The notes below the pieces were generated by a model. The model was not told the DNA's origin, did no database searches, and was given only the letters and a program-made list of their open reading frames with translations. The translations under genes and the position numbers were made by a program. A stretch of 64,000 nt of DNA from Thiomicrorhabdus sediminis (GTDB lineage: Bacteria; Pseudomonadota; Gammaproteobacteria; Thiomicrospirales; Thiomicrospiraceae). Below are positions 12,631 to 28,559 of the stretch, one piece after another; positions within the stretch are counted from its first letter, which is position 1; each line of letters opens with the position of its first letter. Location of the stretch: positions 1,503,630-1,567,629 of the forward strand of contig NZ_CP040602.1 of assembly GCF_005885815.1 (NCBI RefSeq). Reading direction: 5' to 3'.

Positions 12631-12671
12631 TAAGCCTGTTTCAGACTCACATTATCGACTGATAAATGACG

Positions 12672-12707
12672 GGCAAAAAAAAGCCCAGGTTGGACAACCT
12701 AGGCTTC
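12672..12707 (-). terminator. Terminator of the candidate sRNA
   Basis: On the minus strand an 11-bp stem with one G-U pair closes a GTCC loop and is followed by eight T (plus-strand A at 12675-12682). On the plus strand no T-tract follows, so it is directional. Confidence 0.85.
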
Positions 12708-12767
12708 AAAATACATTATCTCATTAGAAATAATCAGAGGAGGATACTCATGAAGAAACATGAATGG
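12675..12767 (-). ncRNA. Candidate small regulatory RNA with UCCUCCU segment
   Basis: The minus strand shows a complete small-gene layout of about 93 nt. A near-consensus promoter lies upstream (TTGACA, 17-bp spacer, TATACT), giving a start near 12767. The transcript begins with a small UCAUG/CAUGA hairpin, then a single-stranded-looking AUCCUCCUCUG, then a weaker AU-rich hairpin. It ends in a textbook terminator: an 11-bp stem (AAGCCTAGGTT with AACCTGGGCTT, GTCC loop) and eight T. The pyrimidine-rich segment is complementary to Shine-Dalgarno sites, a common seed type in trans-acting sRNAs. I recognise no Rfam family. No protein frame of useful size exists on this strand. The RNA runs convergent to slt. 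Confidence 0.78.
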
Positions 12768-12772
12768 CGCGT

Positions 12773-12801
12773 AGTATATTAGCGTTTTCTAATGTTGTCA
12801 A
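12773..12801 (-). promoter_or_regulatory. Sigma-70 promoter of the candidate sRNA
   Basis: On the minus strand TTGACA (12801-12796) and TATACT (12778-12773) are separated by exactly 17 bp. The -35 box is perfect and the -10 box has one mismatch. It drives transcription toward 12675 and faces no protein gene. Confidence 0.8.
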
Positions 12802-14681: not shown

Positions 14682-15278
14682 ATGTTAAGAAGAGTGTTTT
14701 TAACCCTGGGTGCTTTAGCGGTCTCAACGGTATTGAGTGTACCGGCAATGGCGCAATCCGAACAGGCGCAGAAAAGCTTCCCGCAGGTACTAATGGAAAC
14801 CTCTGCCGGTACGGTGATGCTTGAGCTTTATCCTGATAAGGCACCGAAGACGGTGGAAAACTTTCTTGCTTATGTCAATGAAGGTTTTTATGACGGCACC
14901 ATCTTCCACCGCGTGATCGGTAATTTCATGGTTCAAGGTGGCGGTTTCACCGAAGACATGAATAAAAAAATCACTCGTGCACCGATTATGAACGAAGCCG
15001 ACAACGGCTTGCGCAACCGTATCGGCACCATTGCGATGGCACGTACCAACGACCCGCATTCGGCAACGGCCCAGTTCTTTATCAATGTTGCACAAAACAG
15101 CTTCTTGGATTTCCGTGAAAAAACACCACGAGCCTGGGGTTATGCGGTATTCGGTCGCGTTATCAAAGGGATGAAGACCGTGAATCAAATTCGCAGCGCG
15201 CGTACCGGCTTTGTTAACGGTATGAAAGATGTGCCGATTGAACCGATCACCATTATCAAAATGCGCCAAGTTAAATAA
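14682..15278 (+). CDS. ppiA: Periplasmic cyclophilin-type peptidyl-prolyl isomerase
   Basis: A 198-residue cyclophilin with a clear signal peptide (MLRRVFLTLGALAVSTVLSV, cleaved after AMA near residue 24), so it acts in the periplasm. Active-site features are IFHRVIGNFMVQGGG and the MARTNDPHSATAQFFIN segment. It catalyses prolyl isomerisation of exported proteins. It has a GGAG ribosome site seven bases before the ATG. The next gene encodes a cytoplasmic paralogue, so the two arose by duplication or cover two compartments. A candidate promoter (TTCAAG, 18 bp, TAGAAT) lies near 14610-14640. Confidence 0.92.
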   Translation: MLRRVFLTLGALAVSTVLSVPAMAQSEQAQKSFPQVLMETSAGTVMLELYPDKAPKTVENFLAYVNEGFYDGTIFHRVIGNFMVQGGGFTEDMNKKITRAPIMNEADNGLRNRIGTIAMARTNDPHSATAQFFINVAQNSFLDFREKTPRAWGYAVFGRVIKGMKTVNQIRSARTGFVNGMKDVPIEPITIIKMRQVK

Positions 15279-15300
15279 ACAAACCGCTTTCATTTATTCG

Positions 15301-15348
15301 AGCCGCTTTTTAACTGTTAAATACAGTAAAATAGCGGCTTTTATTTTA
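15301..15348 (+). terminator. Terminator between ppiA and ppiB
   Basis: AGCCGCT pairs with AGCGGCT and an inner TAACTGT/ACAGTA stem, followed by TTTTATTTT. It should end ppiA transcripts and separate them from ppiB. Confidence 0.78.
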
Positions 15349-15374
15349 TTCAATAATTGTTAAGGAAAATCACT

Positions 15375-15878
15375 ATGGCAAAAGTTCGCATTGAAACCAC
15401 CATGGGGAATATCACCGTCGAACTCGATGAAGATAAGGCACCGATCGGCGCGGAAAATTTTATCCATTATGTTATGGACGGTTTTTATAACGGCACCATT
15501 TTCCACCGTATTATTCCGGGCTTTATGGTTCAAGGCGGTGGCATGTTGCCAGGCATGGATGAAAAAGACTCCGGTGAGCCGATCGAAAACGAAGCCGACA
15601 ATGGTCTGAAAAACGAACGTGGAACTCTAGCCTATGCGCGTACCATGGATCCGCATTCGGCAACCACTCAGTTCTTTATCAACTTGGTGGATAACGGTTT
15701 CCTTGACCACACAGGTAAAAACACTCAAGGTTGGGGTTATGCGGTTTTCGGTAAGGTTACCGAAGGTATGGATGTCGTTGATGCGATGGCGAAGGTTGAA
15801 ACCACCAACCGCCGTGGTCACCAGGATGTACCGGTTGAGGACATTTCAATCATCAAGACCGTTTTGATTGAAGACTAA
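15375..15878 (+). CDS. ppiB: Cytoplasmic cyclophilin peptidyl-prolyl isomerase B
   Basis: A 167-residue cyclophilin without signal peptide. The catalytic segment is [15 protein letters not shown], and [17 protein letters not shown] holds further active-site residues. Length matches E. coli PpiB (164). The frame opens upstream at a TTG, but the ATG at 15375 has AAGGAA nine bases ahead and fits the family N-terminus ([11 protein letters not shown]). It lies just upstream of lpxH, as in many gammaproteobacteria. Confidence 0.94.
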
Positions 15879-28372: not shown

Positions 28373-28448
28373 TGGTGGGTCGTGAGCGATTCGAACGCTC
28401 GACCAATTGGTTAAAAGCCAACTGCTCTACCGGCTGAGCTAACGACCC
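28373..28448 (-). tRNA. tRNA-Lys (UUU), copy 2 of the pair
   Basis: A 76-nt cloverleaf on the minus strand starting GGGTCGTTAGCTCAG, anticodon loop CTTTTAA (anticodon UUU), T-loop GTTCGAATC and encoded CCA end. It is identical to the upstream copy and separated from it by 35 bp. Confidence 0.97.
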
Positions 28449-28483
28449 ATAATATATGGTGTGCATTCCAAATCCGGAATAAA

Positions 28484-28559
28484 TGGTGGGTCGTGAGCGA
28501 TTCGAACGCTCGACCAATTGGTTAAAAGCCAACTGCTCTACCGGCTGAGCTAACGACCC
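28484..28559 (-). tRNA. tRNA-Lys (UUU), copy 1 of the pair
   Basis: The same 76-nt sequence as the downstream copy with encoded CCA. It is the promoter-proximal gene of a two-tRNA transcript. Confidence 0.97.

Follow-up and report, generated by a model that had tools for sequence, protein, structure and literature searches.

A family-wide small RNA candidate of the Thiomicrospira group with a conserved core antisense to an idealised translation start

Introduction

CyaR (RF00112), a small RNA found in Enterobacteria, has a 5′ hairpin, a single-stranded ACCUCCUU that pairs with the ribosome-binding site (RBS) of outer-membrane protein mRNAs, and a terminator, and it involves Hfq. In the available text of two papers, the family RF02278 (Betaproteobacteria toxic small RNA) comprises NcS27/bdhR1 and other double-hairpin RNAs of Burkholderia cenocepacia, with S17 of Bordetella pertussis as a related RNA (PMC5688073, PMC11722255). 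For Thiomicrospira, Thiomicrorhabdus and Hydrogenovibrio crunogenus, the open-access literature yielded no described regulatory small RNA (sRNA), most subscription papers lying outside this scope.

Here we analyse a putative sRNA gene in a 64,000-nucleotide stretch of Thiomicrorhabdus sediminis DNA (contig NZ_CP040602.1, positions 1,503,630 to 1,567,629; hereafter the window). The gene had been proposed, from the DNA letters, as an orphan regulatory RNA acting on RBSs through a UCCUCCU segment. Beyond this original prediction, its conserved core mirrors a whole translation start and not just a Shine-Dalgarno (SD) sequence.

Gene context and transcription signals

The sRNA gene lies on the minus strand (Table 1), downstream of cysS and opposite to the convergent slt, the same two genes between which it had originally been placed. 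The product of slt was identified as a murein transglycosylase by its best NCBIfam match, which falls below the cut-off. The promoter described earlier, TTGACA and TATACT separated by 17 nt, was recovered on the minus strand; TTGCA replaces TTGAC in the promoters of L028 and of genus g2. Within 6 kb, 12 promoter-like sites were counted compared to 10.1 in shuffled sequences, and 13 terminator-like sites compared to 7.1. Among the 12, the sRNA promoter ranks first with 11 of 12 letters, although a promoter alone would not stand out at these frequencies, so that only conservation decides whether the gene is real.

Judged by the position of the -10 box and the point at which conservation sets in, transcription would start near 12765-12767. 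The distance from the -10 box to the terminator stem is ~65 nt and not the ~93 nt given before; it is the whole RNA that measures ~92 nt. The terminator stem has 12 pairs (12707-12680) where 11 had been counted, while the run of eight T is present as described (12682-12675), its first T's pairing with the foot of the stem.

On the plus strand, the interval from slt to the sRNA (12631-12758) showed no intrinsic terminator, and a transcript reading through from slt would carry a perfect antisense of the sRNA core, making it a possible sponge. Elsewhere in the window, two adjoining genes for cyclophilin-like peptidyl-prolyl isomerases were recognised by eye at 14682-15878, the first with a signal peptide, and two tRNA genes lie in tandem on the minus strand at 28376-28559, their Rfam scores being identical.

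Table 1. Features of the sRNA locus in window coordinates.
Feature	Position	Strand	Basis and remarks
-35 box TTGACA	12796..12801	(-)	Sequence; TTGAC in 50/55 homologous promoters
-10 box TATACT	12773..12778	(-)	Sequence; TATAAT-like hexamers at the same place in homologues
Promoter overall	12773..12801	(-)
Inverted repeat ATTAG-AAAACG-CTAAT in promoter spacer	12778..12793	(-)	Possible operator for a repressor, proposed to be of ArsR/BigR/YgaV type
Small RNA gene, predicted transcript ~92 nt	12675..12767	(-)	Covariance-model matches; fold
Hairpin 1, AUUCAUG-UUUCUU-CAUGAGU	12746..12765	(-)	5′ arm drifts while loop and 3′ arm hardly change
Conserved core, antisense of AGAGGAGGATACTCATGAAGAAA (SD, spacer, AUG, Lys, Lys)	12736..12758	(-)	Sequence; likeness to starts
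Unpaired anti-SD segment AUCCUCCUCUG	12735..12745	(-)	MFE fold, between two small hairpins
Hairpin 2, AUUAUUUC-UAAU-GAGAUAAU	12715..12734	(-)	Fold; 96.6% of cells paired
Rho-independent terminator, 12-bp stem and T8	12675..12707	(-)	Sequence, fold, covariation in homologues

Distribution and conservation

A DNA search that took in 142 relatives, together with a covariance model run over the family, located the sRNA gene in 55 of 62 family genomes and in all seven genera (g1, 26/32; g2, 4/4; g3, 1/1; g4, 1/1; g5, 9/9; g6, 11/11; g7, 3/4). The covariance model accounted for 51 of these and sequence for the four of g2. The seven family genomes in which no copy was found are draft assemblies, 79-99% complete. 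A promoter, a CCUCC or CCUCU segment and a terminator are all kept in the homologues, as would be expected from the original prediction, which named CCUCCU; g2 has CCUCUU at this place. At the gathering threshold, Rfam returned only two tRNAs over the whole window and no match at the sRNA, and the view of an independent small RNA gene without an Rfam family is upheld. One genome with no clear copy (G028) gave a weak match that looks degenerate (L056, TTTCTTATGCTTATCCTACTCTGATTATTTTT) and is either a decayed or a chance copy; this match and two promoter-only matches (L059, L060) were excluded from the homologue count.

Each of 51 genomes contained one confident match, and under strict filters the lone second match was weak (G009, E 0.08). 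The gene cysS lies upstream in 47 of the 55 loci, some of which reach contig ends, and a convergent lytic transglycosylase gene is found opposite in 49 (slt in 46, mltD in three). Neither cysS nor slt is nearby in the g2 loci and in L043, and in g7 slt is replaced by mltD.

When the search was extended to the class, with a model built without g2, strict filters and 11 candidates scored per genome, four of 369 genomes matched, all four inside the family, and the other 365 gave none. As the filters were strict and the model misses even the g2 copies of the family, a diverged homologue may exist outside it. No sRNA match was found in the plasmids, phages and viral contigs searched. A scan of GTDB genomes for exact copies of an 18-mer from the core returned 63 stretches, 30 of which are the sRNA and 33 of which lie outside the family. 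The sRNA stretches come from Thiomicrorhabdus, Hydrogenovibrio, Thiomicrospira and Sulfurivirga, and from MAGs assigned to this group by contig identity or name. Of the 30 sRNA stretches, 26 matched the model at E 7e-8 or better; the next match (L109, E 0.003) is an out-of-family gene start. A weak out-of-family match in the DNA search, outside the core (G119, E 0.008), was absent when blastn was rerun. As far as searched, the sRNA appears to be a single-copy, family-restricted gene confined to Thiomicrorhabdus, Hydrogenovibrio, Thiomicrospira and Sulfurivirga.

RNA fold and covariation

The minimum free energy (MFE) fold of the sRNA reaches -31.2 kcal/mol (z -6.1), and none of 200 shuffles was as good. 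From 5′ to 3′ it consists of hairpin 1, an unpaired stretch of 11 bases (AUCCUCCUCUG), hairpin 2 and the terminator, and the segment originally drawn between two small hairpins coincides exactly with that stretch.

Covariation was assessed in 51 aligned sequences, without g2, L056 and a second weak match in L039. In this alignment, whose fitting to the model biases it towards the structure, the whole structure is 97.6% paired, compared to 36-52% when the alignment was slid, and a slide of one column lowered the value to 44-51%. The terminator helix carries two-sided changes in nine of nine modelled pairs (98.4% of cells paired). Hairpin 2 shows U-G/U-A/C-G variation with one pair changed on both sides, and hairpin 1 shows no two-sided pair changes because its letters hardly vary. 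By eye, hairpin 2 is missing in g2 and g7; the 5′ side of hairpin 1 is altered in both genera and TTTCTTCATGAGT is kept. Changes in the loop or 3′ arm of hairpin 1 are limited to a few exceptions (L020, L023, L037, L038 and L040). Since the 5′ arm changes while the loop and 3′ arm stay, the letters TTTCTTCATGAGTATCCTCC are kept by something other than the hairpin.

The conserved core as antisense of a translation start

The near-invariant core UUUCUUCAUGAGUAUCCUCCU and its flank form an uninterrupted antisense of AGAGGAGG-AUACUC-AUG-AAG-AAA, the parts of which read as an SD (GGAGG), a 6-nt spacer (AUACUC), the start codon AUG and the codons AAG AAA. AUCCUCCU is invariant in 50 aligned sequences (without the four g2 sequences and one duplicate), the last letters of the core vary in g5, and g2 retains only CATGAGTATCCTC. 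The constrained part exceeds UCCUCCU and includes, in hairpin 1, both the loop and the 3′ arm. The earlier idea of RBS targeting by UCCUCCU stands with regard to the unpaired anti-SD segment; it was too narrow in naming UCCUCCU alone, the complementarity taking in SD, spacer, AUG and AAG AAA.

The core complement was compared to gene starts using a position matrix built on 327 ATG starts, which were taken from the window and from 20 further stretches sampled. It outscores 99.1% of these 327 own-genome starts, and only 0.06% of 13,793 ATGs reach its score, in a matrix that favours SD-rich sequences as the starts were picked partly by their SD. Among the 33 out-of-family 18-mer matches, the ATG of the match opens a reading frame of 60 codons or more in 28, compared to none of 30 at sRNA loci; several have evident signal peptides (by eye), and an in-frame stop lies within 60 codons upstream in 20 of the 33. 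Such reading frames are expected of any SD and ATG at the right spacing, and they show that the core is the antisense of a sequence of this kind.

Candidate targets

A search of 58 genomes for the exact 15-mer complement returned no place other than the sRNA. Allowing up to three mismatches, the 16-mer complement was found at 11 places in the own genome, one being the sRNA (control 3), and at 148 places in 13 relatives, 13 being the sRNA (control 54). From the 135 other places in the relatives, 60 regions with an intact ATG and a plausible SD were picked by eye and read together with five own-genome regions; the candidates read in these 14 genomes carry two to three mismatches. The recurrent genes, named by eye, were type IV pilin-like, porin-like, OmpA-like, rpsR-like and flgC-like, along with a persulfide-dioxygenase-like MBL protein present in two own-genome copies. 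Their recurrence may simply reflect strong SDs. The two copies of the persulfide-dioxygenase-like MBL gene in the own genome (L064, L067) are near-identical (99.6%), and each has a ATTCAACCATTTGGTTGAAT-type palindrome upstream as well as an sRNA-complementary start.

Over 380 sampled own-genome starts, the core paired with a mean of -11.90 kcal/mol, compared to -10.98 kcal/mol in shuffles keeping AUCCUCCUCU, and surpassed 58 of 60 of these. Strong duplexes (≤-18 kcal/mol) made up 6.1% of the sample, a share that seven of the 60 SD-keeping shuffles reach. The block kept was CCUCUGAUU in the first shuffle control and AUCCUCCUCU in the repeat, from which the figures are taken. Pairing was not significantly better for genes starting with MK (p 0.086), nor was it better for the seven genes starting with MKK, MKN or MKR (mean -11.70 vs -11.76 for non-MK genes).

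Two gene groups, the OmpA-like one and msrB, were traced in relatives. In the own-genome sample msrB formed the best duplex (-28.4), a pairing not kept in relatives, where it is strong in three of 28 starts (two of 30 loci had no called gene). In the OmpA-like group, which was chosen after the fact from a query gene found by its match to the core, seven of 13 starts are at ≤-18 kcal/mol, compared to 6.7% of 178 starts in 30 family loci (one gene caller; post hoc comparison). Without the seed genes L258 and L261 and the near-copy L259, five of ten remain strong, in pairs of close relatives; the strong starts include the distant L266 and L267 (29% identity, TCTGAGGAGG-YCGCATC-ATG, -24). An evident start of L259 was missed by the gene caller and would bring the count to eight of 13. 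Six of the 13 starts pair weakly, no OmpA-like match was found in the own genome at E 1e-30, and the single OmpA-like gene in the own-genome sample reaches only -15.8 kcal/mol. OmpA-like outer-membrane mRNAs are the best target candidates found and are put forward as candidates only.

Proposed mode of action and alternatives

We consider it probable that the gene encodes an independently transcribed, trans-acting sRNA, probably Hfq-dependent, which would block translation initiation as the antisense of an idealised start. The unpaired AUCCUCCU would contact the SD of mRNAs, and pairing would then extend to CAUGAGU and UUUCUU, which form the 3′ arm and the loop of hairpin 1, opening the hairpin until the duplex covers the start codon and first codons. 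Binding of the 30S subunit would be blocked and the mRNA repressed or degraded, probably with Hfq, and the match outside CCUCC would set target specificity. In sequence and conservation, the sRNA has features of the Hfq-type trans-acting class, namely its own promoter and an intrinsic terminator with a U-tract, and Hfq is encoded by the host (PF17209 match, E 6.9e-29).

It is unlikely that the RNA instead serves as a decoy or sponge, in which CCUCC would copy the 16S anti-SD tail and occupy free SDs or an RNA-binding protein. The UCCUCCU segment resembles the 16S anti-SD, conserved mRNA targets are only candidates (with the 15-mer complement at the sRNA alone and msrB strong in three of 28 starts), and pairing to starts in general is just modestly above shuffles. 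A pure anti-SD decoy would, however, need neither CAUGAGUA nor UUUCUU, yet both are nearly as invariant as CCUCC, and both can be read as antisense of AUG AAG AAA.

The frequent convergent lytic transglycosylase gene (49/55; slt 46, mltD 3) and the lack of a visible plus-strand terminator between slt and the sRNA would both fit a mainly cis-acting RNA, either as cis-antisense to the 3′ UTR of the slt mRNA or with slt read-through as its sponge. We find this quite unlikely, as the RNA of g2 and L043 has neither cysS nor slt in its neighbourhood and g7 has mltD as partner, while the core stays.

A coding reading was rejected for either strand on broken frames, absent starts and the 0 of 30 loci with at least 60 codons. 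A short mRNA, read from the AUG at 12761 as MFLHEYPPLII... with the core as peptide, is very improbable: MFLHEYPPL follows the first AUG in 34 of 55 homologues and another in-frame AUG in five more, and the g5 differences (CTG ATT ATT to TTA GTT ATC) are synonymous or conservative, but indels break the frame in L020, L037, L038 and L040, g7 and g2 have no start codon though the letters stay, the leader is only ~5 nt from the inferred start and holds no SD, and lengths range from 4 to 46 codons. We attach just as little weight to a plus-strand reading of AGAGGAGG-ATACTC-ATG-AAG-AAA as a real RBS and micro-ORF start (MKKHEWRVVY here), where the start signal is very strong and slt transcripts may reach it with no plus-strand terminator seen between, but where no family locus among the 30 has 60 or more codons, the frame leads into the promoter of the sRNA and is divergent beyond the first 3-5 codons (by eye), and the conserved promoter and the terminator with its covariation sit on the minus strand.

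A promoter repeat and possible persulfide control

For the trans-acting sRNA, a possible mode of regulation is offered by the inverted repeat in the promoter spacer (Table 1). A repeat of the form ATWAG-N6-CTHAT (core TWAG-N6-CTHA) is found in 35 of 55 promoters, all of them among the 39 of g1, g3, g4 and g6, and is absent from the g5, g7 and g2 homologues. In g5 (L041-L047, L050, L051), the -35 box of several homologues is directly preceded by an inverted repeat resembling TTATA-N4-TATAA, and the g5 sRNA may be under another regulator. The two promoter-only matches outside the family stand before rhodanese-domain genes, L059 preceding a rhodanese gene and an MBL-fold gene and L060 a DUF4395-rhodanese protein.

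According to the available text of PMC9774250, YgaV is a SqrR/BigR homologue that represses ygaVP and binds there at the RNA polymerase site, with weaker binding after sulfide treatment, and the operator of SqrR is ATTC-N8-GAAT (PMC9774250); the available part of PMC5823870 did not give the exact BigR operator. In the E. coli ygaVP promoter, TTAG-N6-CTTA occurs twice in the 30 bp before ygaV, and a third site, of the form TWAG-N6-CTWA, lies elsewhere in the 8 kb covered; the two sites before ygaV differ in their flanks from the sRNA repeat and are missed by the longer pattern. An ArsR protein of the own genome (L288:3819-4136) has both YgaV cysteine positions by eye and scores 66 bits on the BigR model (cut-off 155). 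Another protein, read from its sequence (L282:19089-19739), seems to combine an ArsR-type DNA-binding domain with a rhodanese-like one.

The pattern ATWAG-N6-CTWAT has 18 sites in the own genome, compared to 10 for a reversed control. Of the 15 that were read, with most genes named by eye, only one lies before a sulfur-oxidation gene, and no clear regulon emerged. ATAAG-N6-CTAAT stands ~200 bp before soxC (gene identity confirmed), and the genes behind other sites include, by eye, groES, hfq and a TonB-dependent receptor. The site near hfq (L332, ~1446669) is ATAAG-N6-CTTAT, located between miaA-like and hfq genes ~230 bp before the latter, and two ATWAG-N6-CTWAT sites 36 bp apart (L334/L335, ~1937854-1937905) lie upstream of a TolC-like gene (by eye).

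The repeat tentatively suggests a persulfide-sensing ArsR repressor and is offered as a lead only. We consider the full scheme improbable, in which a BigR/YgaV-type ArsR repressor on the repeat would keep the gene silent until sulfane sulfur builds up; the RNA then made, being antisense to a complete consensus start and not to a single message, would lower translation of a class of mRNAs, those for outer-membrane and exported proteins first. Such a build-up would be expected in these thiosulfate and sulfide oxidisers and, if the scheme is true, the persulfide-responsive RNA would form a family-wide post-transcriptional arm of sulfur homeostasis.

Discussion

With this gene, the Thiomicrospira group of sulfur oxidisers gains a well-defined, family-wide sRNA candidate with a testable pairing region. 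A core antisense to an idealised start also poses in a clean form the question of how targets are picked by an RNA that could pair with very many starts.

When the sRNA was compared to known RNA families, sub-threshold Rfam matches to PrrF, Spot 42, PyrR, VrrA and others were rejected; those whose alignments were inspected share mainly the terminator and a few letters. CyaR is like the sRNA in layout only, is not known to share similarity beyond CCUCC and belongs to a different taxon, and it is absent among the 18 Rfam matches of the sRNA up to E 5. RF02837, anti-hemB (Burkholderia RNA 7), has a CCUCC segment and an intrinsic terminator like the sRNA; the sRNA scores 19.2 bits against a gathering score of 49.5, its alignment contains several non-standard pairs, and it does not qualify as a member.

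The same holds for RF02278, for which the sRNA scored 20.3 bits against a gathering score of 50, the part common to both being mainly GU-UCCU and the terminator. In outline, RF02278 RNAs act similarly to the mode proposed here, as far as the available text describes them (PMC5688073, PMC11722255). The available text of the former gives 3-5 copies per Burkholderia genome, whereas the sRNA is single-copy (PMC5688073). Unlike in RF02278, the CU-rich part of the sRNA is preceded by a 5′ hairpin, and the antisense is continued over AUG and two Lys codons by the 3′ arm and the loop of this hairpin. Judged by its sequence, with function inferred, the sRNA represents a new family of the known RBS-antisense kind, distinct from RF02278.
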